Part shown: in pieces, positions 228 through 26,000 of the stretch
Position numbering within the stretch: the stretch's first letter is position 1
Layout: every line of letters begins with the position of its first letter
Assembly (NCBI GenBank): GCA_036874045.1
Contig: CM072337.1
Span: 8,618,001 to 8,682,000, forward strand
Direction: 5' to 3'
Length of the DNA stretch: 64,000 bases
Source: Cymodocea nodosa
Taxonomy: Eukaryota > Streptophyta > Magnoliopsida > Alismatales > Cymodoceaceae
Translations under genes and position numbers: made by a program
Notes under the pieces: generated by a model
The model's database searches: none
What the model saw: only the letters and a program-made list of their open reading frames with translations
Told to the model about the DNA's origin: nothing

Positions 228-2280
228 TGTTTAGAATGAAAAAGTGCATAATATTAATGGTTAAATGATGGTTAATTGCATAATATTTAGCTTATCATAT
301 GAGAATTAAGCCATTATGTTATAATTGCACTGTTATAAGCTTTAATTAAAGAATCTGCTTAATTTTGGGGAATTAATGTTAATTTAGTACATTTCTGAAC
401 TGTTGGTAAGTTGTAGACTGTGAAATTCTTAAATATCCGAATTTTCTGTTATTTCGGACAGTTATGTTTAACGTATCGAACATGTATCGAACAGTTATGT
501 TTAAATTGCCGAATAGTTATGTTTTAAAAGAATATTTTATTATTTCCTAAAGTACACGTGTCAAAACCATAATGCATGACTTAAGTGAACTTTTAGTGAG
601 TTATCTATAACTATCCGAAATTGCAGCTGGGCATCGGATAGTTATATGTGTAACTCTTCGAAATCTCCTTTTATTTAGAAAATAGCTGTGGACATGTGTC
701 ATGTTTTGGGAAAGTGACTTAAGTGGATTTTCAGTGAGTTATTTCTAACTATCCGAAATGCATCTGGGCATCGGATAGATAGACCTGTAACTCTCCGAAA
801 TGTTTCTTTTATTATTAAACTACTGATGACACGTGTCGTGATCTAGAAGATTGACTTAAGTTATATATCGGTGAGTTATCTGTAACTATCCGAAATGCAT
901 TTGAGCATCGGATAGTTAAGTCTGTAACTATCTAAAATGCACCTGAGCATTGGATAGTTAAATTTATGCACATGTTTTATAGTTAAATCAACGAAGCAAG
1001 TCCGTTGACTTATCTATAACTCTATGGACTATTTATTTTCTAATATGCCACTGTAGTGGTTAATGAAATAGGACAGTTGGAAGGAAAAACCACGATAGCA
1101 CGTATCACGTAGGAATTCACTCGTCGAAGGGAGAAGAAATCATTGTCGTTGATATGAATGAAGGAAATCCAACTGACCATTCAAGCAGAAGCAGTTACCA
1201 CTGAAGAAATGTAAAAGAAAAGAAGAAAAAGAAGTAAGGTGTGATCGATGGGTGCGGCCAGTGTGTGTAGAGGAGGAACACTGAGCTTTCTGCAGGCAGT
1301 GTCGGCAATTCTCTGAAGTACCACACCAACCATCATCACCACCACCATAATCACCAACCATCGGAGGTCTGTTAGGATACTTTCCTGATGTCGGGTCGAT
1401 TCTGAGTCAAACACAATGCTTGACAACCACTATGAGGAGTGATCGTGTCGCGGGAAGGGAAGCCATTTTCACCAAACGCCGACTCATATCTTAGGAGATC
1501 GTAAAGCTTCTAGCCTTAGCTTCGGGTTGATGCCTGTATGCTGAAGAGGAGATCATCTTGCAATTTTGGACTTGCGATTCTATAGGGAGAGGAGACAGAA
1601 TTGTAAGTGGTTTAATTTTCAATGGTGTAATCACAACGCATGTACTGACGGAAGTATCTACTATCGACTGAGATTACTTTACAGTTTACTGAAATTGGTT
1701 CGTTCAAAAGACTTAAAGATTTTAATGGTTACTATTTGAATTATCTGAATGTTAGTATTGCCTAGTGATAAATCCAGTGTTTACTAACATTAAAGAGTTT
1801 AATTGATGTTATTTACAATCTGTGGAACCGCCCAATGGTTGGCCGAATTCCTCTGTAAATAGCAGTATTAAATAGGAAAGGCAGGCTCATGGAGTTAACT
1901 TAAGTCCACGAGGTTAGTCCGTTGAGTTAGCCATAATTCAACGAACTTTGTTTGTTGAGTTAACTGTAACTCAACGGAGAGCTTATTGAATATATAAATT
2001 TGATTGTTAAAAATGAAACAGTTCTCAATTCTTAAGCAATTTCCTATGGGATCGACGTGTACTTGCACAATAATACAATAGACGCTGTGCACTTGCAGTT
2101 AAAATACAAATTGGAATAAATATCTAATTTGTGTGAAAGGTTGTTTGTTTACTTCTAAAAAAGGAATAGGCATAAAGATAAATTAACTAAGTAAAAATAG
2201 AAGTTAACAAATCCAAGTTTTTCTGGTGCGTTGTTGGAGATCCAAACAAGTTTTCTAGTGTCGTGCTAGGTAACCAAACA
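228..2280 (+). repeat. A1 5' LTR
   Basis: This 2053-bp LTR starts TGTTTAGAATG and ends in CA, seven bases before the PBS. U3 holds three degenerate 137-bp units with G-box-like palindromes. R-U5 holds the segment around 1380-1600 that is shared by all A-type LTRs. Compared with the 3' LTR it lacks 163 bp (15052-15214), and the break lies at a TTTACA repeat. Its putative TATA box reads TGTAAAAG near 1210, where the other A LTRs have TATAAAAG. The stretch 1900-1975 carries the words GAGTTAACT and AACTCAACGGA in inverted pairs. Confidence 0.9.
579..965 (+). repeat. Three degenerate ~137-bp tandem units in the A1 U3 region
   Basis: Units begin with ACTTAAGT at 579, 717 and 854, a period of 138 and 137 bases. 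Each holds GTGAGTTAT, then AACTATCCGAAAT, then a facing copy ATCGGATAG, so each can fold into a hairpin. The first two units end near a G-box-like GACACGTGTC or GACATGTGTC. The same array, at the same period, is in the 3' LTR (13960, 14098, 14235) and in the solo LTR at 33450-35640. Confidence 0.8.
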
Positions 2281-2287
2281 AATTTTA

Positions 2288-2305
2288 TGGCACCGTTGTC
2301 GGGGA
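2288..2305 (+). promoter_or_regulatory. Primer-binding site of A1, tRNA-Asp type
   Basis: TGGCACCGTTGTCGGGGA lies seven bases after the LTR end. It resembles the Athila-type site complementary to the 3' end of plant tRNA-Asp, with apparent C-to-T changes. Sites of the same kind lie at the same spacing in A3 (46138) and A4 (49949). Confidence 0.8.
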
Positions 2306-2381
2306 ATTAATATAAGCAACTGTTAGAGCTGTTTTGTTTTAATGGCGAGAGTGTTGTGTGTTTTCTTCTGTAATTGAGAAT

Positions 2382-5300
2382 ATGGCATATGCTTATGCTC
2401 AAAGATTTCTGAAACCTATAGTTAGCATATGTGAATTCTGCAATTCCGAAGGACACAACATTTCTGACTGTTTGAAACTGAGATGTTTGCAGATGGCTAG
2501 ATCCAATGAACAACAAATAAATTATCCTCAATATAATAGAGCCGAGTATGAGAATCCTATAGTTTACCCAACTGATGGTCAGTATAGAATGTGTAATATG
2601 TTGAGAGACACAGAAGTTTGGGATAGGTATGATAGACTAGAGCGTAGTATAGAGCAAAACCTAGACAAACTAGAATACTTTATGTGTCAGCAACAAGAAG
2701 TCAACCAATTAAACTATAAGGAAGCATATTCAGAACCTAAAATGGATATAATTTACGAAACTGAAAAAACCATAATGAAAATTGATCAAAAATTGAATGC
2801 AATGAGATTAGATGATCTAGAAAGAAAAGTAAAAGCATTGGACAAATATACAATGAAAATACAAGTTATGCAACAGGACAATGGAAATTATAATGTTATA
2901 GATCTATATAATTTACAAAATATACAGCAAAAAGAAAACATTAATGCAAGAGAATTTAAAGAATGCACTTTAAAACTAAAAACAATTGAAGATCATAATC
3001 ACAAAAATGATATACAAAAACATCATGAGAGTAACGAAAATCTGGAAGATGTATGTGTAACAATAAGATCTAGAACTAATATACCACCAAGAACTCAAAA
3101 TGAAAATAATATGAAGGTGGATAAGAGTAAAAATCAAAATGATAATGAAAATGTAATAGCTGAAAATCTAGAAATCACTAAAGAACAATCTAAATCTGCT
3201 AATGAGGCTAAAAATGATCAAACAAATCAACAGAAAGAAAAAGAATCTTTTAAATCACAATCTTTAGCACCCTATCTTGAAAGATTACAACAAACAATAC
3301 CTGAAAAATAAGAAAAAATCAGAGAAATTTTTGAAAAAGTACAAGTTAACATTCCTTTGCTAGATCTATTGCAAAAAATGCCACCTTGTGCTAAATTTCT
3401 AAAGGATTGGTACACTAAGAAAAGAGAGCAAAAGGTTCTTAGAAAGGTCTTTTTAGCTGAGCAAAGTAGTTCCCTATTTCTGCCACAAATTCCCAAAAAG
3501 TTATATGATCCTGGAATCCTTGTTATATCATGCACCATAGGAAATACCATTCTAGAAAGAACCTTAATAGACTTAGGTGCAGGTATAAATGTTATGCCAA
3601 GTGATATATTTGCATCCTTAGGATTAGAAGACTTAACTCCTACTAGTACGGTTATTCAATTAGCTGATAGAAGTATAAGATACCCTAGAGGAAAAATAGA
3701 GGATGTCTTAATTAAAATCAAAAACTTTATATATCTTATTGATATTGTAATTTTGGATTCCAAACAAATTAAGCATAAAAATAGTGATACATCTTTAATT
3801 TTGGGAAGGCCATTTTTAGCAAAATCAGTGGCTATTATAAATTGTAAAATTGGAGTAATGAAGTTAGCATATGGTAATGAGGATACTCAACTAAATATTT
3901 TCAAACTAGAAAGGTTTGAGGAGTTAGAAATGTCCTTACTTACCATAGACTTTTTAGAGGATGAAGGAGATATGTCAGATGATGTGATTCAAGAAGAATT
4001 AAATAGGCAAATCAATTCTGAAATTTTAAAGGAAAGTGAAAGCATAAATATAGAAGGTGATCTGGAAGAAATTAATTTACAAAATGATGATGTTCAATTA
4101 GGAGCTCTAGCTTCTGATGGGCAACATTTAGAATTAAAACCTTTACCTCCTGAATTAACCTATATATTTCGAGAAGAGAAATGAACATGTCCAATCATTA
4201 TTGCTTCAGATTTAAAAGAGGATCAAATAGCTAAATTAAAAGATGTAGTAAAAAGTTATAAAGAAGCAATAGGATGGACTATGACTAATATAAAAGGGTT
4301 AAGTTCAACTTTATCCTGTCACCACATATATTTAGAAGAGAATGCTAAACCTGTTAGAATTCTTGAGAGGAGATTAAATCCAAACCTTAAAGAAGTAGTC
4401 AGGAAGGAAATAGTGAAATGGTTAGATAATGACATAATTTATCCGATTTCTGATAGCTCGTGGGTTAGTCCAATTCATGTAGTTCCCAAGAAATTAGGAT
4501 TAACAGTTATTAGGAATGAAAGTCAAGACTTGATACCTACTAGAATTCAATCAGGCTGGAGAGTATGTATAGACTATAGAAAACTGAATGTTGTGACTAG
4601 GAAATATCATTTTCCCTTACCTTTTATAAATCAAATGTTGGAAAGATTAGCAGGGCAAAAATATTTTTGTTTCCTAAACAGGTATTCAGGGTATAATCAA
4701 ATTCCAGTAACATTAGAGGATCAAGAGAAAACAACTTTCACCTATCCTAATGGAACTTATGCTTTTAAGAGAATGCCATTTGGATTATGCAATGCACCAA
4801 CTACCTTTCAAAGGTGTATGCAGGGCATATTTACTGAAATGACTGAAGATTTTTTAAAAATATTTATGGATGATTTTACTGTATATGGCAACTCATATGA
4901 AGTCTGTTTAAAAAATTTAGACTTAATATTAAAACGTTGTGTGAAAAAAAATCTGGTTTTAAATTGGGAAAACTGTCACTTCATGGTTAAACAAGGAATA
5001 GTCTTAGGGCATGTTGTTTCTAAGAAAGGGTTGGAAGTAGATAAAGCTAAAATAGAAGTAATTTCTAATCTACCAGAACTTAAATCAATAAAAGATATTA
5101 GATCATTTCTAGGACATACTGGTTTTTATCGAAGATTTATTAAAGACTTTAGCAAGATAGACCTTTAACTAATCTATTAAAAGATGTTCCATTTAACTTT
5201 GATAAAAATTGCAATGAAGCATTTTTCAGACTTAAGACTAGCTTAATTTCAATTCCTATAATTCAAGCACCTGATTGGAACCATCCATTTGAATTAAAGT

Positions 5301-7027
5301 GTGATGCTTCTGATTTTGCTGTAGGAGCAGTGTTGAGACAAAAGATAGAAAAATCTCCTAGAGTGATTCATTATGCAAGCAAAACCTTAAATGATGTTCA
5401 AGTTAATTACACAACTATTGAAAAAGAATTATTAGCTATTGTGTTTGCTTTAGAAAAGTTCAGATCATATCTAATTGGAGCTAAAGTAATAGTATACATG
5501 GATCATTCAGCTCTAAAACATCTAATAAAGAAAAAACAGACTAAGCCTAGATTGATCTAATGGATATTATTATTACAAGAATTTGATCTAGAAATTAAAG
5601 ATAAAAAAGGTTGTGAGAATGTAGTAGCAAATCATTTATCAAGATTACAAATAGAAAAATCAAATATTGAAATTAAGGATAATTTTCCTGATGAACAATT
5701 AATGACCATCAACACAATATCTTGGTATGCAGACATAGTTAATTACTTAGTTACTAGTCTAACACCTAAGGATTGGAGTAGACAGGATAAGAAATTGTTT
5801 TTCTCAAGAGTAAAATATTACTATTGGGAAGACCCATACTTATTTAAGAAATGTCTTGATCTAGTTTTAAGGAGGTGTGTTCCAGAAACTGAATATCCGA
5901 GTATATTGTCTTTTTGTCATGATCAAACTTGTGGAGGGCATTTTGGTTTAGGGAAAACTACTGCAAAAATTCTGCAATGTGGGTTTTATTGGCCAACACT
6001 ATTCAAAGATGCTCATAAATATTGCTTAAGTTGTTTAAGATGTCAACAAATAGGAACAATATCAAAGAGGAATATGATGCCTCTTAATCCTATTGTTGAG
6101 GTTGAAATCTTTGATGTGTGGGGAATAGATTTTATGGGTTCATTTCCAATGTCTAATCAATTTAATTACATATTGTTGAGGGTGGATTATGTATCTAAAT
6201 GGATAGAAGCTATTCCTACAAAAACTAATGACAACAAAGTGGTAATACAATTTATAAGAACCAATATATTTGCTAGATTTGGAATACCTAAAGCTATTAT
6301 TAGTGATAGAGGAACTCATTTCTGTAATAGAAGTTTTGAAGCCTTAATGAAGAAATATGGAGTAAAACACAAAATTGCAACATCATATCATCCGCAAACA
6401 AGTGAACAAGTAGAAAGTGCAAACAAACAAATTAAGTTAATCTTAGAAAATGTAGTAAATCCTACTAGAACAGATTGGGCTAATAGATTGATAGATGCAC
6501 TTTGGGCTTATAGAACTGCTTATAAAACGAGCTTAGGTATGTCACCTTTTAGGCTAGTATATGGAAAAAGTTGTCATTTACCTGCTGAAATAGAATATAA
6601 AGCTTATTGGGCATTAAAAACTCTGAACACTAATTTAAATCAAGCTACTGAAAATAGAAAAATGCAATTAATTGAATTAGAAGAATTTAGAAATGAAGCT
6701 TTTTCGAAGATTGTAAAAGAAAAAGAGAAAATGAAATTCTAGCATAATAGAAAAATTATTCCAAAAAGCTTTGAAATAGGACAAGAAGTATATCTTTATA
6801 TGGCTAGACTTCATAACCATCTAGGAAAATTAAGATCTAGATGGGTAGGACCTTACATAGTTTGAAATATTTATCCTTATGGTGCTATTGAAATTGAAAA
6901 TCCTAAAAATCAGAATATATTTAAAGTAAATGGACAAAGACTTAGACCTATTCTGAAAACACCAAAAAGCTCCTTTGGAATTATAGAAGAATTTAGAGTA
7001 GAGGACTACTTGAGCTTTACTTTGTAA
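2382..7027 (+). pseudogene. A1 gag-pol (Ty3/gypsy, Athila type), broken
   Basis: One reading frame runs from the ATG at 2382 to a frameshift near 5160 and continues in another frame to the TAA at 7025. A CX2CX4HX4C zinc knuckle (CEFCNSEGHNISDC, 2430-2471) stands almost at the N terminus. A long charged, Asn/Glu-rich part follows. Then come protease (IDLGAGINVMP near 3570), RT (FMDD at 4863-4874), RNase H ([12 protein letters not shown] near 5300), the integrase HHCC zinc region (about 5920-6050) and the DDE core with [14 protein letters not shown] and the final Glu in SEQVE. Breaks are TAA at 3309, TGA at 4182, a frameshift near 5160, TAA at 5558, TAG at 6740 and TGA near 6863. No capsid-type gag domain is visible before the zinc knuckle, and the start is only about 75 bases after the PBS. 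Confidence 0.9.
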
Positions 7028-7548
7028 GAAATCAATTTTATGTTTAAAAAAAAAAAATATTAAAAAAATATATATAAAATATAAAAATCGTTGTGGTTCA
7101 ACCGACTAGATCCATCGGTATGACCGAAACATAAAAAATATGTATATTAATTTTTTTTTAAAATTAGGTCTGACCGAAACATAGTATCGGTTAAATCGAA
7201 AAAAAAGAAGAAAAAAACAGTAAAACTATTATCTATAGTATTTTTATTATTATATTTGTTTGTAAAGGAAGTCTGTTGAGTTACGATTAGTTCAACGAGC
7301 TTACTCCATTGAGTCTTAAGTTAGTCAATGAGCTTATTCCGTTGAGTTAACTATAACTCAATGGACTACTGTAGCTAAGACCGCGGATGAGAGAGTAATA
7401 GTTGGTTCGGGAAATGACCCGATTACGTGCCTAAACTTAGGGCTTATTTAAACTAAAACCTAGGGTTTTGGGGGCATTATCCAGCAAATCTTTTAGAATC
7501 TAGAACAGTAGAAATCAGAGCGATTTCGTGCTATTCTGTAACTCCACA
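7028..7548 (+). other. Non-coding spacer between pol and third ORF of A1
   Basis: No coding signal is seen. The stretch holds A-runs and T-runs (7045-7170), repeated GACCGAAAC words near 7120-7180, and the inverted words GTTGAGTTA and TAACTCAA (7270-7370) that are also found in the LTRs. A start codon in the right frame for the third ORF follows at 7549. Confidence 0.6.
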
Positions 7549-9750
7549 ATGAGGAAGATGACACTTGAATTCTAGGAAAAGGTAGTTGACACAACATAGT
7601 TTCTGAAGGAATCGGAAGAATGGCACACGCGGCAAAAGATTCGGAATACAACAAGAGAGAAAGAGTTACAAAAGGTAGAATCAGAACTCTTTAACTTAAG
7701 GAAAGTTTTGGTTGAGTTAGAAATACAAATACCTCAGATAATGGAGACACAAATCAGAGTGGCAATAGAAATTGTAGTTAGTAAAGAAAGAAAAATATGG
7801 TCGAACAACGAAGTAGCCCTCGAGCTAATTCAACGTAAAGCCAGATTGTGGTTTAAAAAATGCATTGCTGGTTGTGGAAGTTGAGAAATATGGCAGCAGC
7901 AACGAGCAGGAGAATAGGAAGAACCGACTACTGAAAGACTTGTTCCTGAGGAACAGCAGTCAGGACCTCCAATTCAGCTAACAGAGCCATTACCTCAAGT
8001 AGCATTTGCTTGGTCGAGAACTGAAGAAGAAGAGAAAGAATTTACTAGCTTGGTCAAAACAGCAAGAGACCAATGTGATACTCAAGAAATAGCTATGGCC
8101 AAGGCACATATGTTATATGATGCCATTAAGAAAAAAAGGGTCGAAGAAAAGATGAGGGCCTAGTACAAAATAAAAGTTAAACAGCATCAGGCAGCAACTA
8201 AATCAAGTGCTGTAGGAGAGGCTGGTCCTTCGAGACCAGCAATTATGAAGAGAATTAAACAGGAAGAGCTAGTACCTGTGGCTCGAAGGCCTGTAGAGCC
8301 TACTTTTGTAGATTTAATTTCAGAAGAAGAAGAGGAAGAACATGCACAATTAATCAGAAAAAGGAAAGGAAAAGAGAAAGTGTTTGACTATCAAAAAGAG
8401 ATTAAATCTGAGGTACCAATTTTAACAGGGCCTATGGAGCAAATTTTTATAAACCTACTATCTGATTCTGAGGAGGAGCAGGAGCTACAGCAGCAGGAGC
8501 AAAGACAAGAAGAAAATCAAGCTGAAATTAGTCTACAGCCTGTACAAGAAGAAACAGAAATTATGGCAGAAACTGAATTGCCCGTGACTCCATCCCAATT
8601 TGTTTCAGAATCAGAAAAAACAGTAACATAATAGATTGGTAGTCAGGAGGAAGAAGAAAGAGCAGAAAATGAAGAAGCTGAAAGAAGCCATTTAAACAAA
8701 AATAACTTTACAGATTCCACTGAAGAGCAAGAAACTCTTCAGCAATTTATGGAAAGAATTCAAGACAGAGTGGAGAGTTCTGCCGACTCACCACCACAGA
8801 CAGAAACAGAAATTCAGGAATCTGTAGAGAATATTCAAATGCAGCCTATAGTAGAGGAATATCAAGAACAAACCCCTCTGGAACAACAAAGTCACCTTCC
8901 TGACCCGACTGAAACAACAATTTTGAATGAAGTACATTTTTGGAGCCAGGAAGCTTATACCAAATATCAAGAGATTAGGGGTTACGATATTATTTACAGT
9001 AGACCAGTAAATTGGGATGGAATGCAAGAAATCAAAGATTTATTTGAATTCCAAGGTCTATTGAAGTTTATTTCTCAAGAAAGAGGGCATGCAATTTATA
9101 AGAATTTAGTACCCTGTTTTTATGCAAATTTAAGAGAAGGTGAAGGAGGATTAATTTCAAATGTGGAGGAAGCTGATGTATAGATAACACCAGAGCTTCT
9201 CCACAACATTTTTGGATTAAAGAATGAAGGACTAAAAATTTTGGAAGATACAACTGTAGTTGAGTGGACAGAACAAGAAATAAAAGATTGTTTAGCTATC
9301 AATCCTGGTGTGCCTTTATTAAACAAATTGAAGCATTTAAATGGTAAAGCACACATGGTAGCCAACATTTTGATTAAGAATGTCTATCAACGACAAGGCC
9401 ATGACATAGAATTGAGTCAATTTCTCAAATGGGCCACGTTGGCAGTTGTAAATAGGATTCAAATAAATTGGTCTGCAGTTTTTATCTCCAAGCTGAAAAT
9501 AGTAAAGAAAAAATTGTTTTATGGAGATTTGATTCCACTGCAGATGGTGGACTGTATCGATTTCACTAAATGGACATCAAAAAGGATTAGATCAAGAACC
9601 ATTTCAGTGAAAGAATACAGAAATTTTGTAGCTACAGAAATAGTTGTACCTTCTAAAGGAATTTCAGGAGTTGTAGAAAGAATTAATCAATTAGAACTTC
9701 AATTAGAAAAAATCCAAAAGGAAGTAGATGAACTTAGGAATAGAGATTAA
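7549..9750 (+). pseudogene. A1 third ORF in env position, plant-transposon-protein-like
   Basis: A single frame from ATG 7549 to TAA 9748 gives 734 codons. It is broken by stops at 7573, 7597, 7882, 7915, 8161, 8629, 8632 and 9181, five of them TAG. The first two thirds are Glu/Gln-rich and low in complexity. The last third (about 8930-9600) is folded-looking and contains LFEFQGL, FGLKNEG, NRIQINW, VFIS and KLFYGD. This resembles the domain often annotated as putative plant transposon protein. The C terminus (9660-9740) looks like a coiled coil. There is no clear signal peptide or membrane segment, so an envelope role is not supported by what is seen. A related ORF sits at the 3' end of the copia-type B elements (18116-20286 and 61724-63941). 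Confidence 0.8.
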
Positions 9751-10185: not shown

Positions 10186-10216
10186 TTAACTCAACGAAGT
10201 AACTTCGTTGAGTTAA
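10186..10216. repeat. Perfect 15-bp inverted repeat with 1-base spacer
   Basis: TTAACTCAACGAAGT (10186-10200) faces ACTTCGTTGAGTTAA (10202-10216). It is the tightest of the many inverted pairs of this word in the A-type sequences and could extrude a cruciform or fold as an RNA hairpin in the element transcript. Confidence 0.9.
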
Positions 10217-10475
10217 ACGTAACTCCACGAGGTCAGTAATATAATATAAGGTCACTCCGTTGAGTTATCTGTAACTCAACGAAGTTAGTCCGTGGAGTTA
10301 GCAACAGTAGCTGACTGTGTTCCGTTGAGTTATCTATAACTCAACGAGGTTAGTTCGTGAATTAAGTAGAACGGTTATTCTTTTAACCATGAACGAAACT
10401 TCATCGATTTAGTAGTTACCAAAATTTGAAATTAGTAGTGGTACACATACCCATAAAAATAGGAACCACGATGCA

Positions 10476-10500
10476 CGTTGCAAGACACGTTCTTGCAACG
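10476..10500. repeat. 9-bp inverted repeat upstream of the F-box ORF
   Basis: CGTTGCAAG and CTTGCAACG face each other around the loop ACACGTT. It lies 152 bases ahead of the F-box start codon and just before a TATA-like run. Its function is unknown. Confidence 0.8.
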
Positions 10501-10651
10501 AGATTTATTCACTTTATGGATGTGCATTATATATATATAACAGAATGTTATTTACGAGTTACCAGTACTTTTAAAAGAAAGGAGAATGCGTTGGAGGAAC
10601 TGGAAGGAGAAGCAGCTGATTCAACTTCATCCGATAACAAATATTTATTGA

Positions 10652-11812
10652 ATGGAAAGCTTCAGACCAAATCTACAAATGGAATTGATGCAATTACCGT
10701 TGGATGCACTAAGGGAAGTACTAAGTAACTTATCAACTAAAGATCTGTGCAGGTTGTGTTGTGTATCAAAGGAAATTAAAGACTATATTGAAGAAAAATA
10801 TTTTCAGGGACTACAAGCTGCAAAAATGACTAAGATTAGAGATGGATTCATATAGAGGTCATTTAATCGTAGTTCAATTAACCATGAATATCTGGCTATG
10901 GAAGAAACTACTGGAATTCCACCCAATACATTAAAAGGAATAAATCATATTATGGGGATAGATGAAGGATTAATCATATACAGGACGAGACCAAGGTATG
11001 CAAGTTTATTATTACCTGATATTTTGATAAGAAATCCTATAATAGGAGAAGAATGGAATATAGGAAGACCTAATAGATTTGAAGTACCAATTGTAAATTG
11101 TGGATCGGCTTTGATTTTTTTTGATAAAAATTCTGCAATTCCTAAAAAATTATATTATTGGAGACCTACAGGAAATTGGGGTGAAGATTTACGCTTAAGT
11201 GTGTATAATTTTCTGAATAGATCTTGGAATGAAAATATTATGATATATCTGGGACGGAAATCATTAATTAACCAAACACATGTCATACTTGATGGATATA
11301 TATATCTAGTCACATATATATCAATAGCATTTGGATCTGATTTATACATAGTGAGCCTAGACAGTTATGATGAATTTATAGAAATTTTACCTATATCGAG
11401 AGAAATAGCTAAACCACCATCTACAGAATTTAATAAAATTCAAATAGGAATGTGGTATAATGAAGATGATGATCCTACTTTATGTCAGATAAGATGGTGG
11501 GATGAACTGATGAAATTTCAAATATGGATTATGGAAGACATAAATGAATGGAAGTGGGAAGAGTATATTGAAATAGATGTAGAAATAGAAACTACTACAT
11601 TACCCTGGAACCAAAAAGGATCTCTTTCTGCATTTCATATCATTAATGGTAATACACTTGTATTTGGAATTTATAATATATTACATGTGTACAAATTAAG
11701 GAGGAACAAGAACTGCATTAAAACAGAATTAATAGCAAGAACTATGCCTAAAAAGTTTGCTTGGATTGATACATTTATTCCATTTGTTCCTACTTTTCAA
11801 TCATGTTCTTAA
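10652..11812 (+). pseudogene. F-box protein gene carried inside retrotransposon A1, one in-frame stop
   Basis: ATG at 10652, TAA at 11810, one frame of 387 codons, no intron. The only break is TAG at 10853-10855; the frame is the same on both sides. Residues about 14-48 form an F-box (LPLDALREVLSNLSTKDL, then LCRLCCVSKEIKDYI), the domain that binds SKP1 in SCF ubiquitin ligases. The rest looks like the plant F-box-associated beta-propeller region: RNPIIGEEW, DGYIYLVTY, and FQIWIMEDINEWKWEEYIEI, which matches the usual IWVMKDY-type strand. Context is unusual: it lies on the same strand as A1, between the third ORF and the 3' PPT. It may be a captured host gene or an ORF native to this family. 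An F-box read from 10652 without read-through would stop after 67 residues and keep only the SKP1-binding part. Confidence 0.85.
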
Positions 11813-13564
11813 GTTGTGATTTTGTGTATTTAATGTTGTGTGTATTATGCATTTATTTTTATTTTATTTTTAAAAAAAATTGTAGTTTTCATGTTTATTA
11901 TATAAAAGAAAAAAAACAAAGCAAAATATCAATCTAATTTGTTGGTATCTGTTCTGGGAAACCAACTAGCTTGCTTGTGAGCCACCAGAGGCATAGGAGC
12001 CTAGGTTCCACATAAGACACTGATTATTAATATCTATTAAATGTTATTTTGTTTTATATTCTACTTTTATCTGTGAATAAAAAGTTTTTCAGAATCAAAA
12101 ATTCGAATATGCAAAAGGAGATACAAACGAAACAAGGTATGTAACCAATTACTTATCCTGAATTTTAAATCAACAAACTGTATTCATACCTACTACAATT
12201 ACTGTACTTATTGTCAAATCTTTTACATTGAGGACAATGCAAAATGTACGTATGGGGGGAGGTAATTAAAGTAACAACCATGTAAGTTTGTTAATTAAAG
12301 GAATTAAAATGGTACTGCAAAGTTTTGTGGAAATTGAAAATTTTTATGAACTTGCTGTAATTATCTGATAATTGAGATTGTAAAATTTTTATAAACTGTA
12401 ACTGCTTGAATGTTATATTTAGAAGACTATATAAGATGCTATAGAATTTACTATTTATGAAAATCTAGATATAGTATCTTATGTTTTTTCTGAATTTCAT
12501 GAGTTTAACAGTCTCACGATTTTAAAATGAAATTAGAATGCTTAATGAAAAATCAGTAAATTATCTGAAGTCCTGAAAGAACTGAGATGTGAATTCTAAA
12601 TTAAATGAAACACATCTGATTAAAGATACATTTAATTTGACTGATTGAACTTGTAGAATGATTTATGTGTAGATCTTATTAAACTACAAAAAAAGTATGA
12701 GCTTATTGTTATGGATTCATATTTTCAGTAAATGATAGAAGCAGGACTATATGAGATTGGTGTTTCACTGCACCTATATTAATGAAATACATGCATATAC
12801 AGTATGTGATTAATGTTTTGTTTTGTGTTTGTATTTTGATTGGAAAAAAAAAAAAGGAAAATTTGAGAGTTTATTGACTTGTTTGATCACGAGCCTTTTG
12901 TACTTGAGCAGATAGGTATGTAATGATTGTTGACCTGAAAAAGGACTCTTGAAATCTGGCAACCTAAGATCTTGATCAGATCTGGGATTGTTGACTGAAA
13001 GCTCGTTGCATGGGTATATTAGAAAGCTCTTGTATGATTCAAGCTTGTCAAATTAACTTTTAAAGTTAAAAAATATATATATATATATACATATACTGTT
13101 CTGAAAAGATACAAGTGTTTTGTGAAATACAGATATTTTATGAATTGAGTATATTTTCTGTTATCTAGAATTGCTGTAATATGAATCTGGAATTGACTTT
13201 TGAAGTTGTTTAATGGAGATACAATTCTTTATTATATTTGTCTTAATCATATTGAATTGGACTGTACTTTGATTCGTATGTTGTTGAAATTTCTTCTAGA
13301 AATCTTATTGGAAAATTTAGGATGACAGATGATGAAAAGAAGAACAAACGATAATATAATTAACACCTATGTGATGATGATATACTTTGTATGTAATTTA
13401 CATATATTCTAAGTATATTTGCATGTTGATTACTGAAACATATAGAATATATATTTTTATGCTAAACAAAAAAAAAAAAAAGTAAGGGGAAGAATTAATT
13501 CTAGCACTTTTAGAAAGACCAATTAATTAGATCTTAGTTTGCTAAGGGACTAGCAAAATTTAGG
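11813..13564 (+). other. Long 3' non-coding region of A1
   Basis: No ORF is supported. A motif typical of Athila 3' regions, TTGAGGACAATG followed by TATGGGGGGAGG, lies at about 12227-12262 and looks like an internal polypurine tract. The remainder is AT-rich, with an AT microsatellite at 13072-13089 and A-runs near 12845 and 13470. Confidence 0.6.
13539..13556 (+). repeat. Small hairpin just before the A1 PPT
   Basis: TTGCTA and TAGCAA face each other around AGGGAC, nine bases before the PPT. The same hairpin and spacing occur at 51807-51824 in a different gypsy element, which suggests a conserved role near plus-strand priming. Confidence 0.75.
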
Positions 13565-13575
13565 TATGGGGGAAG
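13565..13575 (+). promoter_or_regulatory. Polypurine tract of A1
   Basis: TATGGGGGAAG ends immediately before the TG that opens the 3' LTR. This is the expected plus-strand primer site of an LTR retrotransposon. Confidence 0.85.
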
Positions 13576-15819
13576 TGTTTAGAATGAAAAAGTGCATATT
13601 ATTAATGATTAAATGATAGTTAATTGCATAATATTTAGCTTATCATATGAGAATTAAGCCATTATGTTATAATTGCACTGTTATATGCTTGAATTAGAAT
13701 TACTGCTTAATTTTGGGGAATTAATGTTAATTTAGTACATTTCTGAATTGTCGATAAGTTGCAGGCTGTGAAATTCTTAAGTAACCAAATTTTTTGATAT
13801 TTCGGATAGTTATGTTTAACATACCGAACATATTTCGGACAGTTATGTTTAATAGACCGAACATGTATTGGATAGTTATGTCTAAATTGCCGAATAGTTA
13901 TATTTTGAAAGAATAGTTTATTATTTCCTGAAGTACATGTGTCAAAACCATAATGCATGACTTAAGTGAACTTTCGATGAGTTATCTATAACTATCTGAA
14001 ATTGTAGCTAGGCATCGGACAGTTATATGTGTAACTCTTTGAAATCTCTTTTTATTTATAAAATAGCTGAGGACACGTGTCATGTTCTGGGAAAGTGACT
14101 TAAGTGGATTTTCGATGAGTTATCTCTAACTATCCAAAATGCATCTGAGCATCGAATAGTTAGCCCTGTAACTCTTCGAAATGTTTATTTTATTATTAAA
14201 TTACTATTGACACGTGTCAAGATCTGGTAGATTTACTTAAGTTATATATCGGTGAGTTATCTGTAACTATCCGAAATGCATCTAAGCATCAAATAGTTAA
14301 GTTTATAAGCATCCAAAAATGCACCTAAGCATCGGATAGTTAAATTTATGCACATGTTTTATAGTTAAATCAACGAAGAAAGTCTGTTGAGTTATCTGTA
14401 ACTCCATGGACTATTTATTTTCTAATATGCCACTGTAGCGGTTGTAGGAACAGACAATTGGAAGAAAAAAAATCATGATTGCACGTATCGCGTAGGGAGA
14501 AGAAAACATCGCTGTTGATATGAATGAAGGAAATCCAACCGACCATTCGAGCAGAAGTAGTTACTACTAAAGAATTATAAAAGAAAAGAAGAAAAAGAAG
14601 AAAGGGTGTGATCGATGGACGGCTAGTGTGTATAGAGGAGGAGTACCGAGCTTTATACAGACTGTGTCGGCAATTCTCTGAAGTACCACACCAACCATCG
14701 TTACCACCACCATAACCACCACAATCACCAATCATCAGAGGTCTGTGAGAATACTTTCTTGATATCGGGTCGATTCTGACCTAAACACAGTGCTTGACAA
14801 CCATTGTGAGGAGTGATCGCGTCGCGGGAAGGGAAGCCATTTTCACCAAGCGTCGACTCATATTTCAAGAGATCGTAAAGCTTCTAGCCTTGGCTTTGGG
14901 TTGATGCCTATATGCTGAAGAGGAGATCATCTTGCAATTCTGAACTCGCGATTCTATAGGGAGAGGAGACAGAATTGTAAGTGGTTTAACTTTCAGTGGT
15001 GTAATTGCATTGCAAGTAGTGACAAAAGTATTTATTATCGACTGAGATTACTTTACATTTCACCTTTCGCCCATTTCCATGTTCATATTAAAACAAAAAT
15101 ACCAAAAACAATTTATCTATGTTTGTATGTTGTATTTGAGTGTTGTATTGTTTGTGTTGTATCGTGATTAATGTTATCTTATTAGTGTTGTGATTGTTTT
15201 ATGTTAGTTTTAGTTTTACAGTTTACTGAAATTGGTTTGATCAAAAGACTTAAAAATTTTAATGGTTACTATGTGAATTATCTGAATGTTAGTATGCTTA
15301 ATGATAAATCCAGTGTTTACTAACATTAAAGAGCTTAATTGATGTTATTTACAATCTATGGAATCGCCCAATGGTTGGCCGAGTTCCTTTGTAAATAGCA
15401 GTATTTAAAAAGAAAGGTAGTCTCGTGGAGTTAACTTAAGTTCACGAGGTTAGTCCGTTGAGTTAGCCATAACTCAACGAACTTTGTCCGTTGAGTTAAC
15501 TGTAATTCAACGGAGGGTTTATTGAATATACAAATTTGATTGTTAACAAGCAAACAATTCTAAGTTCTTAAGCAATTCCCTATGGGATCGACTTGTACTT
15601 GCACACTGATACAATAGACACTGTGCACTTGTAGTTAAAGTACAAATTGGAATTAATATCTAAATTGTATTAAAGGTTGTTTGTTTACTTCTTAAAGAAA
15701 AAAATAGACATAAAGATAAATTAACTAAGTAAAAACAGAAGTAACAAATCCAAGTTTTTCTGAAACGTTATTGGAGATCTAATCAGATATTCTGGTGTCG
15801 TGCTGGGAAAATCCAAACA
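13576..15819 (+). repeat. A1 3' LTR
   Basis: This 2244-bp LTR runs from TGTTTAGAATG to ATCCAAACA. It has the same plan as the 5' LTR, but keeps the 163 bp that the 5' copy has lost and keeps an intact TATAAAAG (14576-14583). The three ~137-bp U3 units start at 13960, 14098 and 14235. Two perfect GACACGTGTC-like G-box palindromes occur (about 14073 and 14210). Confidence 0.9.
14576..14583 (+). promoter_or_regulatory. Putative TATA box of the A1 3' LTR
   Basis: TATAAAAG precedes a purine-rich AGAAAAGAAG run and the conserved R-U5 block. The same box is found at 34406, 42200, 44941 and 48752 in the other A-type LTRs. Confidence 0.6.
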
Positions 15820-15887: not shown

Positions 15888-17149
15888 TCTGTTCTCACTG
15901 AAGTGTCCTAGTCTTTTATGTCATAAGTCAGTGTCTTCAATATCACTAACTACTGCAATAGTGTCATCTTGATTCGATGTTAGATATAAGGTGCTAGTCC
16001 TCTATCTTGAGGCAATAATTCTTGCACTTTTGGTTACCTTCCATTTGCCTGCACCAAAAGCAATCTGATAACCATCATTATCTAGGGAACTTATGGAAAT
16101 TAAATGCTTTGCAAGATCAGGAACATATCTGACCTCTTGCAATTTCCATATCCCTTGTTTTGTTTTTATGTGTACCTCTCCTATTCCCAACACATCCAAA
16201 CTTGTGTTGTTAGCTAGGTACACATTTCTCACAGGAGTTGCATGATAATTGTGCAACAAATCCTTCCTATAGGTAGTGTGGAATGAAGCTCCTGAGTCTA
16301 GTACCCATGAGTCAATTGAACTGTCTACGTAGCATACTAGGGCATCATCTGAATCATAGGAGACAACATTTGCACCTGCTCCTTCTAATTCCTTCCCTTT
16401 GCTGTCTTTCTTGGGAGCCTTGCACTATGACTTGAAGTGCCCCATTGATTGCAATTCCAACATTTGATATCTGATCTCACTTTACTGGTACCTCTAGACT
16501 TTGACCTTCCTTTGGATTTAAATTGTTTTGATTTACTTCTCCCTCTACTTTCAACACTAAGGGAAAAAGTTGAAGTTGACAATTCACTTTTTCTGTAAAT
16601 GTCCTCACTCAAAATTAAATCTCGGATGTCACTCATTTTGAGCTTCTCATGACCTAGTGAACTACTTACACCAGTCACGATAGGAGACCAACTTTCTAGT
16701 AATGATGATAATAAAATCAAGGCCCTGATTTCATCATCAAATACTATATCTACTAAATGCAGTTGATTCAAAATAGTATTTAACTCATTAATGTGGTTTG
16801 TAACATTTCTATTTTCATGCATTTTCAGATTAAATAATCTACGCATGAGAAATACCTTGTTGGCGGTTGATGGCTTCTCATACATGTTGGACAAAGCTTT
16901 CATCAAGTTAGCCATTGTTTTCTCTTTGGCAACGTTTGAATGAATGTTCCTTGCTAGTGACAACCTGACGAGACCTAGAGCTTTTCTGTCCAGCAACTCC
17001 CACTCTTCCTGATCCATCTTCTCTAGTTTTCTTCTGAACAGAGGTTGATGAAGATCCTTCTGATACAAACAGTTTTCTATTTGAGACCTCCAGTATCTGA
17101 AATCTTTTCCATCAAACTTCTCGATCCTGAGCTTTCTATCATCTGCCAT
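15888..17149 (-). pseudogene. D gag-protease fragment (Ty1/copia), broken
   Basis: The start ATG is at 17149. Residues 1 to about 220 form a copia-type gag with FDGKDFRYWRSQIENCLYQ near the N terminus. A zinc knuckle begins CWNC near 16455, but a frameshift inside it puts the His and last Cys (GHFKS, then a stop, then CKAPKK) in another frame. Protease follows with the catalytic DSGAS near 16300 in WVLDSGASFHTT, then VRYVPDLAKHLISISSLD. Near 15900 the pre-integrase motif HKRLGHFSEN is seen, with the Trp codon before it turned into a stop. The sequence ends at the inverted A-type LTR scrap. Confidence 0.85.
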
Positions 17150-17171
17150 TTTGTTAAACTGAAAACCTTCA

Positions 17172-17183
17172 GCTCTGATACTA
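17172..17183 (-). promoter_or_regulatory. Primer-binding site of D, initiator tRNA-Met type
   Basis: On the minus strand it reads TAGTATCAGAGC, one base different from the usual TGGTATCAGAGC. It lies two bases after the LTR end. Confidence 0.8.
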
Positions 17184-17185
17184 GT

Positions 17186-18089
17186 TGTTATGATTAAAAC
17201 CAATCGTTCAGTCAACTTTCTATGGCACGATTCTGAAACACTCACCTCTTAACTCACTGAAATTGGAAGTGAAGAGTAAGAGAAAGAAATAACACTGAAG
17301 ATAAGGATTTACATGGTTCGGCAATTACCTACGTCCACAAAGAGTTGAGGGTTCTACTATGAGCTTCGACACAATCAACCGCTCAGTTTTTACATCATAA
17401 ATGTTTATATACTACCCAACTTAGGGTTAATAAACCTTTAATTACATTCAAGCCATTATAGTAGAGAAATAATGCTTCGGAGAAGGGACTCTCAATTTCG
17501 AAGCCTTATCTTCCCATCTTTTCAAAATCTACAACATTTCAGATGGTTATAGACTTAACTATCCGAAGAAATTCTCCTTTCTTCATTTGTTGTAACAAGC
17601 AATACTATAGCAGGCTAACTATCTGGAGAGATTCGGTATTTCAGATAGTTACAAACCTAACTATCCGAAAACCCACTTACTTCTCTCTCTTTGTCCTTTC
17701 GGAAGGTTCTATTGTTAACTCTCTGAAAACTACATGTCTTTTGAATACTTACTATCTTAACTATCCGAAAACTCACTTAAGTGTCTCTTTAGTCATTTCG
17801 GAAGGTTCTGTCGTTAACCTTCCGAAAGCTTATGATTTTCGAATAGTTACTACTTAACTATCTGAATATCCACTTAAGTTACTGCTTTTCAAATACTTGG
17901 CTTCTTAACTATCCGATCGTACACATAAGTATCCTTTAAGTCGTTACGGATGGTTACAGCTAGTAACCCTTTGAAATCTTCTAACTTTCGGATAGTTAGC
18001 TCAAAGCCTCTAACTGAAACTTTATTTTCAGATACTTAGGCCTGATAACCTATCAAAAATATAAATCTGCCAGATACTTACTGTTAACA
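17186..18089 (-). repeat. D 5' LTR
   Basis: On the plus strand it runs from TGTTATGATT to TTAACA, 904 bp. The part 17530-18060 is a string of the words AACTATCCGAAA and TTCGGATAGTTA in both directions, the same words as in A-type and C-type LTRs. The right end is inferred from the CA terminus and from where the B1 reading frame resumes. Confidence 0.65.
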
Positions 18090-22512: not shown

Positions 22513-23250
22513 ATTTTATATCTAAGATACTTGATTTTACTTTATATACTTACATTTTGTATTTAAAATAATTTGATTTAATTTTATTTTAGATACTTGT
22601 ATTTTGTATCGACAATATTTTGATTCCAATTTCTTAGATATTTATATATCTATATTTTATATTTAAGATGTTTAAATACACTTGTTTTGGGTCTTAGGTC
22701 TTTATATTTTATACCTAAGATATTTAAATTTTTTTTAGATATTTGTATTTCATATCTAAAATACTTTTAATTTTGAATCTTAGATATTTACATTTTATAA
22801 CTAGAATACTTAATTTTTATTTTATTTTAGATAATTATATTTTATATCTAAAATACTTTAATTTTGAATCTTAGATATTTATATTTTATATCTAAGATAC
22901 TTTAATTTTGAATCTTAGATATTTATATTTTATATCTAAAATACTTTAATTTTGAATCTTAGATATTTATATTTTATATCTAAGATACTTTAATTTTGAA
23001 TCTTAGATATTTATCTTTTATATCTAAGATATTTATTTTTTTATTTTAGATATTCATATTTTATATCTAAAATATTTTAATTTTGAATCTTAGATATTTG
23101 TATTTTATATCTAAGATATCTAATTGCTTATTTTAAATATTTATATTTTACATCTAAAATACTTTAATTTAGAATCTTAGATATTTATATTTTATATCTA
23201 AGATATTTAAATTTTTTTTTAGATATTTATATTTTATATTTAAGAATGCT
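22513..23250. repeat. AT-rich minisatellite, ~44-bp unit, each unit a hairpin
   Basis: Degenerate units occupy most of this stretch and are clearest from 22725 to 23240, about a dozen copies. Each unit holds CTTAGATAT and ATATCTAAG facing each other around nine bases, then a TACTTTAATTTTGAAT-type linker. Spacing alternates a little and the ends are worn. The B1 LTR ends exactly where the array begins, so B1 was probably inserted into or beside it. Confidence 0.85.
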
Positions 23251-26000
23251 TTTATCTTCCCAAAATATTTGACTATTATATGTGTGTGTGTGTTTTTTTT
23301 AAAGGAAACTGAAGGAGATTCGACCTAATCGATCTTCGGTTAGATTGAAAGGAAAAGAAGACCGCAGGCATTTGCCCCTCTCCCTTTTCCCTCTCTCATT
23401 CTTTTCTCCTTTTTTCGTATTTTAAACGTCTAGTCTAATCGATCGTACGCATTGGTCAGACCAACCTTTTAGCATTCGGTCCAACCGTGGATATATTTTG
23501 GTTGGACCTTCCTCTCGTTTCATATATGTATGTTTTTGTATGTGTTGTGATTTAAGTTCAATTATTTTCCGTTCTAGGTATGCTCATTTCGTCAACCATT
23601 TCTCTTTTTTTTATTCATTGCTTTTTTATTTATTCATTTGCACTTCTTTCCCTCTTTTTTCTTTTTTACCGCTTGATGGACAGAGCGTCGCTCGCCCACA
23701 AAAAAATGCGAACGCTAGCCGTTGTAGTTTCAAGAGGTATGCGACGACATGCTTGGAAGTCATAGCTGCCAAAGAACGTTTCCTTCTAGGAAAGTGTGCG
23801 ACAATGTATTCTTTTCTTTTTTGATCTTACCTCTTCCCTTCTCTTTGTTTAAACAGACTGAAACTTACGTTGTTTGGTTGATTTTCTTTTGCAGTTGGAA
23901 CATGCGACGGAGAAATGCAGATGCTTGCGACAGTGCGTACAGCGGAAGAGAAAAAATCATTGTTTTCGCTAGCAGGAGACTTTCTGGCTTTTCCTTTGTA
24001 CAGCTGTACGTCAAAAAAATTTTCTTTCGTTGGTAGTAACTGATGTTCGGAGAGTAGGAGCAGGTGTGCGTGTGATTTTTTTTTTCGAATCTGCTTCCTC
24101 TTCTTTTTATAACCTTCCATCGGAGTGGCGAGAGTGACCCCGTTGCGCATCATGGAAGAGAAAAAATAGCAGATGTGTGGAGCTTTGTTCGTGGGAACGT
24201 GTGCTCTTATAACTTCGATAATAATTTCTTTTGTTTTTGTTTTGTATTTTGTTTGTTGTTATTATTTTTTTATATGCATTTGATTTCATTATCATTTCAT
24301 CATTTCTGTCGTTCATCATTTCATTTTTTTTTGTTATATACATTTTTACTTGGTTTTTTTTTATATTGTGTCCGACGTGTCCAATCTTGTCTTAAATACT
24401 TACCCCTTCTAAAATATTTAATTGGGATTACACTTTAGTTGAAATATCTAATTTCATTTTAGAAATTATTGTTTTGTGTTCACTGTTCTTTTTTCTTTTT
24501 GACTTCATTTGAGGTATTCATGCTTCAAATGTTTAATTTTATATTAACATTTGTTTTATCATTTGATCAAAAATTTTTTGGTCATCTCCATTTTTATTTA
24601 TTTCATTTAATTTTTTGCCGTCAACAATTAGAAATAGTTCATTATTTATGTATCTATATATTTTGAAACTATCAATCAGCAGCAACTGTTTCTTTTATCG
24701 GCGATCCGATTCAGATGCTTGATCTTAATATCCACTTAAAAAAATAAATAAGAAAATCCCCAGCTGAAGCTTGAAGGTGATGTCATTAGTCATCATGAAC
24801 TCAATCACATGATTTTTGTTATATATATAATACATTTTTTATCTTAAAATTTCTAGAGTAATCTCCTCGGGTCTTAACAATATCGCTTGTTTGACATTGT
24901 GGGCAAGCTGGTACGATCAAGTGTCTCACGTTGCTTAAGAAGGCATCTTCACTTTCTGCCACATCTTTCTTGCTTTCAACATCTTCTTTCTATCATCTTT
25001 CTTAATGGAGGAATCATTTGAAAAGACAAAACGTCATCCTTCTTTTGGTGCCAGGTACAAGCAAAATAAATCACAAATTTCCTTTTCCAATATATCTGAT
25101 CATCCAGCTACCAATGTCTCGTATTCTTCCTCCAATCGCCCCGCTGTGGTGTTACACTGTTGTAGTTCCATAACTAGTTAAAATAGTTTGAAGTGTCAGG
25201 ATATACGAGGAACAACCCCATAATTCAATACCCATTTCAAAACCTGCACGAACAAACGTATGCTTCAACTTGTTTTCGGTATACTATTTTTGTTTTCTAA
25301 AGTGGTTTGCTAGAACAAGTGAGAAATGTGATTGAAATCTATTGAGTGTTTGCACTAAAGAAAAGAGAAAATATAGTCAAATGAAATTTAAAATAAATAA
25401 GATCATCTAATTTTATTTTCCGTTTGATTCAGATGTTTGTAAATGTTTAGGAAGGAAAAAAAGTATTTTTCTTCTAAATTCTACTTTTATGGATAGTAAA
25501 CCTAAAGAATCAATTGAAGTTCGTAATGGAAACCGAAGTAATTACTTTATAGTGGAAAATAGTACACACACTATAATTTGAATTTAATTTTGATCAAAGT
25601 GAAAATATTGGTTTTAATTTTGATCAAAATGAAAATATTAGTTTTCTTTGATTCTGTACACAAACTTCCATTGTTTGAAAGCAAGCATTGTTAAATGCTA
25701 ATCGAGCTGCCATTCCAATCAACCAAAGTAGAAGACGACATGTGGATGCATACTCATAGCAATATTTAAATCCTCATTTCCGCTACTTTCAACCAATCTC
25801 GAAAAGGAAGACGGGCATTCCTTTGAAAAAATTAGAGATCAACTTCTGAATAAATGGAACATTGTGGTTGATTACAACCCTACTTCTGCTGCTTTTACTA
25901 TTACATAATTCATTACTAAGTTGTTAATATCATCTGTAGGAGATAGACACATCCTACGATGCAGTTTCAAGTGTAAAGATAGCTTGGAAGTTCTTAGAAC
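23251..26000. other. Intergenic region between minisatellite and NAC gene
   Basis: No gene can be supported. A TG microsatellite lies at 23281-23294. The part 23330-24450 is T-rich, with scattered short frames of low complexity. Near 24880-25170 the minus strand has short coding-like stretches (SNVRHLIVPACPQCQTSDI, and further right LEEEYETLVAG) that may be the remains of an unidentified gene. The part 25690-26000 is probably the 3' untranslated side of the NAC gene. Confidence 0.5.

Follow-up and report, generated by a model that had tools for sequence, protein, structure and literature searches.

A resident F-box gene and a capsid-bearing intron in a high-copy Athila-like LTR retrotransposon family of Cymodocea nodosa

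The F-box open reading frame at positions 10652 to 11812 (+ strand) of the stretch analysed here belongs, as a resident accessory gene, to an Athila-like LTR retrotransposon family of high copy number. The window, as the whole 64-kb stretch is called below, comprises positions 8,618,001-8,682,000 of CM072337.1 in the Cymodocea nodosa assembly GCA_036874045.1; 374.6 Mb of the host genome were searched. High copy number at a constant position, together with the presence of an F-box in a second, older lineage, strongly supports use of the ORF by the family.

The F-box frame and its element

The frame has 387 codons, with one internal stop (10853-10855) before the terminal one. The F-box itself occupies residues 13-49 (PF00646, E = 4.1e-10; PF12937, 1.3e-5); its PF00646 score is 39.6 bits against a curated cut-off of 20.5, and three further copies score 35-40 bits. 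The C-terminus resembles TIGR01640 (F_box_assoc_1; E = 3.1e-7), at 29.9 bits under the curated cut-off of 37.9, and FBA_1 (E = 0.06-0.08, also under cut-off). The longest open run, 318 codons in the 3′ region, exceeds that of all 1500 simulated regions (three compositions, 500 each), where the maximum was 200. PDB sequence searches, including one with the family profile, matched no solved structure usefully. A first-pass annotation of this DNA had described a 387-codon frame with an F-box and an F-box-associated-like region, broken by a single TAG at 10853 and lying on the sense strand between the third ORF and the PPT and LTR. All of this holds, the F-box call by the HMM scores just given, and the position by the end of ORF3 at 9747 and the PPT and 3′ LTR at 13560 and 13576. 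Third codon positions of the frame are close to those of the element's gag-pol, but its four-fold sites are richer in A, and the codon usage of gag-pol is matched about as well by an unrelated ORF (18116), so that codon composition is weak evidence for residence.

The surrounding element, all on the + strand, begins with a 5′ LTR (TG...CA; 228..2280), its ends set by a solo LTR at 33450-35640 that has AGAGG at each side; a PBS-like sequence adjoins the 5′ LTR. The 5′ gag place (2343..3308) encodes a zinc knuckle and linker without a capsid domain (zf-CCHC_2, a weak 0.007). It is followed by a protease region (3312..4181; Asp_protease_2, 7e-4 on 3357-4181, under the curated cut-off), a reverse transcriptase (4185..5165; RVT_1, 2.5e-27 on 4281-5165), whose closest proteins are plant-type RTs at no more than 70% identity, and an integrase (5561..6739; rve 4.4e-16 and Integrase_H2C2 9.7e-14 on 5702-6739). 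ORF3 (7600..9747), at the env-like position, is decayed in the window copy; PF20167 (Transposase_32) matches two of three ORF3 pieces from other copies (L013, 8e-6; L028, 7e-5; both under the curated cut-off), with none in L010. Downstream of the F-box frame are a 3′ non-coding region up to the PPT (TTAGGTATGGGGGAAG; 12225..13575) and the 3′ LTR (13576..15819), whose ends are likewise set by the solo LTR.

The element that the first-pass annotation had named "A1" is not one clean insertion. No 5-bp target duplication was found at the element flanks (GTTTC / ATAAG). The K2P distance of the 3′ LTR is 0.081 to the solo LTR and 0.116 to the element's 5′ LTR, and the 3′ LTR has 20 derived sites in common with the solo LTR against 4 with the 5′ LTR. 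An inverted integrase piece forms the left flank (1-227), and an inverted LTR end the right flank, from 15820. Flanks, missing target duplication and non-sister LTRs together suggest that the window element is probably a recombinant. LTR dating of this copy was set aside as invalid, since its two LTRs are not sisters. Elsewhere in the window, two more partial copies (45.6-47.9 and 49.9-51.1 kb) align across the capsid-less 5′ structure; 22513-23254 is an AT-rich tandem array with a 22-nt step, and 16385-17245 (- strand) is a Copia gag (Retrotran_gag_2, 1.9e-24).

The first-pass annotation had also proposed looking through the genome for the same ORF at the same place, where it does recur. With the 304-aa C-terminal piece as query, 6467 first-look candidates yielded 130 scored near-full-length places: the window's own copy and 129 others at 89-93% identity, the matched part being stop-free in 46 of the 130 (hand count). 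A second sample, blind to F-box presence, consisted of 20 of 117 integrase hits (those best to the window integrase, about every third down the upper half), each taken with 10 kb downstream. F-box sequence is present in 14 of these integrase-sampled loci (partial in L015, the N-terminal part alone in L023) and absent from L011, L018, L019, L021, L024 and L027. Where integrase end, ORF3, 3′ region and LTR are all in view (L012-L015, L017, L018, L020, L022, L025, L028), nine of ten loci carry it, L015 in part and L018 not at all. In all 14 it lies on the sense strand, 3′ of the integrase (and of ORF3 where present) and 5′ of the 3′ region; window positions 12200-13575 match sequence 3′ of the F-box in the F-box-bearing loci of this sample.

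ORF3 is absent from L016 and L023, which have in common an exact deletion of it (L016 1-760 and L023 1-930, oriented; window-equivalent 7380 to 9700). Loss by splicing was considered and rejected, since the common junction is not GT-AG, leaving a deletion. In this derivative subfamily, one member retains the capsid intron described below and the other has lost it.

A capsid-bearing intron and its exon-joined derivatives

Of the 54 unique copies in which the F-box start is readable, 47 have the end of an intron next to the F-box exon, although at least 5 of these 47 no longer have the acceptor AG. Across its 5′ boundary the intron reads ...CTTCAGACTG^GTATGT (with G or A preceding the GT), and across its 3′ boundary ...ACAG or ATAG^AATCGACAAATGG. 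Among the integrase-sampled loci, 10 of 11 intron-bearing ones have a GTATGT donor, an AG end and a length of 1530-1560 nt; no donor was found in the eleventh (L026) because its upstream sequence differs. In most of the copies sampled, an intron of about 1,556 nt separates a short exon that has the start codon from the following exon, which encodes the F-box body. The remaining 7 of 54 copies (the window, L004, L006, L013, L023, L034 and L039) have an exact exon-exon join, with base changes but no shift at the junction, and exon 1 supplies the first ATG of their frame. In the window, the last part of exon 1, including the start codon of the F-box frame (10652..10669, +), meets the F-box exon (10670..11812, +; by translation and domain profiles the F-box module, F-box-associated region and stop at 10853-10855) at 10669/10670, in the same register and length as in the other joined copies, with three base differences. 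The first-pass description of the gene as intronless is thus right for the window copy and wrong for the family, the window copy having lost an intron.

The capsid lies within this intron. In the 8 intron-bearing loci read, the distance from ORF3 to the F-box is about 2.5 kb; capsid-like peptides occur in that stretch in all 8 (PF03732, 3.3e-19, for the L022 piece, the one on which Pfam was run), 3′ of ORF3 and inside the intron, and the capsid is missing at the 5′ gag place. The family's own capsid piece found no capsid match in the whole window (best 0.38). Gag is thus split in this family, with a zinc knuckle in the 5′ ORF (window 2281-3308) and a capsid gene 3′ of ORF3 (L009-L028).

The distribution of joined copies was examined on a tree of 54 sequences (57 loci with F-box matches, less 4 under 90% coverage, L023 among them, plus the window), built without the junction columns and including 6 exon-joined copies. 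It requires 5 changes for these 6, and a single clade of joined copies is rejected (AU p = 1.1e-8). The single clade is rejected in each half of the ORF as well (p = 0.015 and 1.3e-7), which lessens the worry that recombination is responsible. Across the genome, 33-mers with up to 3 mismatches count 3061 unspliced donors and 202 spliced junctions, against 0 and 0 for reversed-pattern controls; the window junction has 3 base differences from the spliced 33-mer.

At the sequence level this is a spliceosomal intron, with GT...AG ends and exact intron-less derivatives. As recorded in these genomic copies, it is spliced in vivo, and the spliced RNA can be reverse-transcribed. The five changes on the tree indicate that this happened repeatedly. 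L013 has the integrase end, ORF3, F-box, 3′ region and LTR, and of the parts inspected lacks this intron alone, so the RNA that gave rise to it was long. The joined copies provide direct genomic evidence that the spliced RNA of an Athila-like element gets reverse-transcribed, a process proposed for the loss of env in Diaspora (PMC1142308). Insertion of the frame as a retrogene with target duplication was also considered; one common 10-mer flanks it, and the idea is made moot by the copy series.

Selection and origin

The F-box module is under purifying selection, while the C-terminus is without clear constraint. In the 54 copies, nonsynonymous and synonymous changes (N:S) number 249:67 among singletons and 62:44 among variants in at least 6 copies (Fisher p = 7e-5), or 1.23 and 0.60 relative to a neutral expectation matched for transition bias. 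In the common class there are 5 N and 15 S at F-box codons 10-60 (binomial p = 5e-4), compared with 54:25 over the C-terminus (p = 7e-4 for the difference), a comparison in which 41 of the 54 copies came from the C-terminal query and are biased against amino-acid change there. This bias could deflate C-terminal change, but it cannot explain conservation of the F-box module. Singletons show no such difference between the two parts (p = 1.0).

The integrase-sampled set tells a similar story for the module, with 8 N and 10 S among variants in at least 2 copies (p = 0.026), and shows no constraint in the C-terminus (40:11, binomial p = 0.35). Over the whole ORF in these 13 copies (window included), variants in at least 3 copies comprise 48 N and 17 S, 1.10 of neutral. 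The test of selection between copies that the first-pass annotation had called for gives a divided answer: constraint on the F-box module, no clear constraint on the C-terminus and, in the integrase-sampled set, none over the entire ORF. Pieces of ORF3 and of the capsid gene are under purifying selection in most classes of shared variants; the capsid piece, with 12 N and 12 S among shared variants, looks constrained. Diversity is 0.056-0.062 in the F-box gene, 0.069-0.091 in the near flanks and 0.052-0.062, equal to the gene, in the 3′ non-coding region.

Stops make up 7 of 191 variants in at least 3 copies. Shared stops (2/108) are fewer than singleton stops (28/344; p = 0.025), a weak difference and not a clear depletion, and one of 13 integrase-sampled copies is free of both stop and frameshift. 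The stop at codon 68 occurs in 10 of 54 copies and is of two kinds, which reads as ordinary decay. The suggestion that the 67-residue truncated product might itself act finds no support here, as 44 of the 54 copies are not stopped there.

A word-based search of a 5.8-billion protein database returned none at E≤10 among 782 word-sharing candidates, while plant RTs up to 70% identical are present in the same database; the viral contigs searched hold no relatives. Against the genome, TIGR01640 gives at least 145 matches (best 49.8 bits), with 38 of the 145 rows listed over the curated cut-off (hand count). Six were fetched, the best one and five stop-free rows; five belong to the window's F-box family (C-terminus 78-83%) and have the same intron end, including the three fetched rows over the cut-off besides L069.

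L069 is a divergent relative (F-box 51%, C-terminus 32%) with frame breaks of its own. On the same strand, 3′ of L069, is a capsid match (62% over 171 residues) whose N-terminal piece begins 0.35 kb beyond the F-box match. L075, L069 and L076 together (C7:17062700-17070800) have an F-box directly 5′ of a capsid and NC-like tail, an older, low-copy lineage in which the F-box is preceded by splice-acceptor-like TTTTATTTTCAG. With L069 as query, 6 more F-box places of this older kind (61-85%, with stops) are among the matches listed; other rows, at 33-38%, are at the level of the main family. Old-kind capsids lie about 0.7-1.0 kb 3′ of the F-box match at at least 4 of the 7 places (C7, C4, C18, C2), with none at the other three among the matches listed. 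The capsids of the two lineages differ by 38% over the aligned part. An F-box lies near the capsid in both and has thus long been tied to this lineage's gag, in two gene orders.

The first-pass annotation had left the choice between a captured host gene and an ORF of the family. Copy number, position and the older lineage strongly support the second, and recent capture is unsupported: simple transduction of a host gene would give few copies and a host donor, but there are thousands of sites, and the donor search it had proposed identified no host F-box gene among the genome matches listed.

Known systems, possible role and palindromic blocks

The element is a candidate member of the Athila lineage. 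Its LTRs (2.1-2.2 kb) are within the 1.5-2.5 kb reported for the Athila/Calypso/Diaspora lineage, with which it also shares a PBS-like sequence only a few bases internal to the LTR and an extra ORF at the env position (PMC1142308); a sunflower Athila ORF is similar to Transposase_32 (PMC11728184), as are, at scores under the cut-off, two of the three ORF3 pieces here. The consensus Diaspora, Athila and Calypso elements are described with one gag-pol ORF, in Diaspora in the order Gag, zinc finger, PR, RT, INT, capsid first (PMC1142308), and Ty3/gypsy elements generally with GAG-PROT-RT-RH-INT, with an intron in Ogre (PMC6317226). The present family, unlike Diaspora, has its capsid 3′ of ORF3 within an intron and then the F-box gene; a capsid that comes first, fused to protease-pol, is not its arrangement.

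Other plant LTR elements also have, in the majority of copies, a conserved extra ORF that lies between pol and the 3′ LTR (PMC7264820; Retand TRP28, PMC11963269). Those named include env-like and Transposase_28 ORFs (PMC7264820, PMC11963269) and Athila ORF-1 and a plant mobile domain (PMC6317226); no F-box is among them in the available portions of these three sources, nor is one mentioned in those of PMC6317226 and PMC5664825. A largely open-access literature search on F-box or captured genes in LTR elements and on spliced gag found no such case in the text accessible; the available part of PMC8764390 reports a tandemly duplicated LTR-gene of the F-box family in Thlaspi. The F-box gene bears on what the extra ORFs of plant LTR retrotransposons do, and offers a recognisable biochemical module, many natural copies on which to test its evolution, and a splice switch of which the intron-less copies are a genomic record.

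In SCF ubiquitin ligases, F-box proteins that carry FBA domains act as the substrate receptors, and retrotransposition requires capsid. Unspliced RNA would give capsid and spliced RNA the F-box/F-box-associated protein, so that splicing would set the balance between them. Through its F-box module the protein would bind host SKP1 and become part of an SCF ubiquitin ligase, and the faster-changing C-terminal domain would pick the target, for which a host factor restraining the element is the most likely candidate. Taken together, a resident F-box gene, a capsid intron, a splice balance and an SCF receptor directed against a probable host factor make up a reading we consider likely. It would be a concrete route for a transposon to exploit host protein turnover. 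In a known partially spliced element, partial splicing likewise decides which protein is made, but it joins two polyprotein ORFs, whereas the present intron holds the capsid gene and its removal would give another protein.

Opposition to host silencing is a plausible role by analogy. Polerovirus P0 (PMC6593998), crinivirus p22 (PMC6784205) and fijivirus P7-2 (PMC3819663) are reported to interact with SKP1, P0 and p22 through an F-box-like motif (PMC6593998, PMC6784205), and some SKP1-binding plant-virus proteins are reported to act against silencing. The common feature would be a selfish genome encoding an SKP1 interactor, with SKP1 binding here predicted from the domain; the retrotransposon gene differs in having a canonical F-box joined to a plant-type F-box-associated region. 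The full combination of split gag, capsid-intron switch and an SCF receptor, made from spliced RNA, by which a host silencing or restriction factor is destroyed is offered tentatively, as somewhat improbable in all its parts at once. If true, it would make a transposon counterpart to viral F-box suppressors, one whose SKP1 dock is conserved and whose target domain changes fast.

Other readings have to be set against these. The protein might act on the element's own capsid or particle assembly, for example in timed Gag turnover, and not on host defence. The capsid and F-box genes lie side by side in both lineages, with their order reversed between the two, and are alternative products of one intron; but the capsid looks constrained (12 N, 12 S) and the F-box C-terminus does not, unlike a co-adapted pair. 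We regard such a role as unlikely, and a host restraint factor is rated above the capsid as the putative target. A gene that merely spreads with the element, with no present function, is given a similarly low probability. Near-neutral C-terminal N:S and the weak depletion of shared stops are in keeping with it, as are the six of 20 integrase-sampled loci without an F-box, four of which keep ORF3 (L018, L019, L021, L024). Conservation of the F-box module in both sample sets speaks against it, as do the conserved splice arrangement and the presence of an F-box in two lineages whose capsids are so far apart over their aligned part.

Far less probable is an ancestral exon-joined form into which the capsid was later inserted, or joins that are template-switch deletions: minority and majority forms do coexist, but the joins are exact at GT...AG, require five changes on the tree and number 202 sites, and the capsid, which retrotransposition needs, is missing from the 5′ place. 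Least credible of all is a one-off passenger, a host F-box gene that this one element picked up and that is now in decay. The window copy does have a stop and is the sole F-box copy within the 64-kb window, but the single capture that the first-pass annotation had kept as the alternative is refuted by the 130 places scored and by donor sites of this element segment that run into the thousands. The reading preferred here remains that of a resident gene, probably encoding an SCF receptor.

A further feature of the family is a 24-nt palindrome, CGTTGAGTTA-N4-TAACTCAACG (up to 2 mismatches per arm), which all 10 loci checked have at three places: in the LTR, 5′ of ORF3, and in the interval from ORF3 to exon 1. 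Eight of these loci bear the intron, and there a further occurrence starts about 85-120 nt 5′ of the F-box coding start. The palindrome is inside none of the 10 ORF3s. The block before ORF3, found there in all ten loci checked, is at 7274..7363 (+) in the window, and that 5′ of exon 1, which is LTR-repeat-like (nhmmer 2.7e-11 against the LTR profile), at 10206..10346 (+). Such a block before each gene may be an internal promoter or RNA signal. An LTR-like promoter 5′ of the F-box was considered and rejected, as LTR similarity is limited to the palindromic block; on its own, 10370-10651 scores no higher against the LTR than shuffled sequence does. Palindrome half-sites also occur in other repeats of the window, at 20.7-21.8, 30.5-31.2, 53-55.3 and 58.5-61.3 kb.
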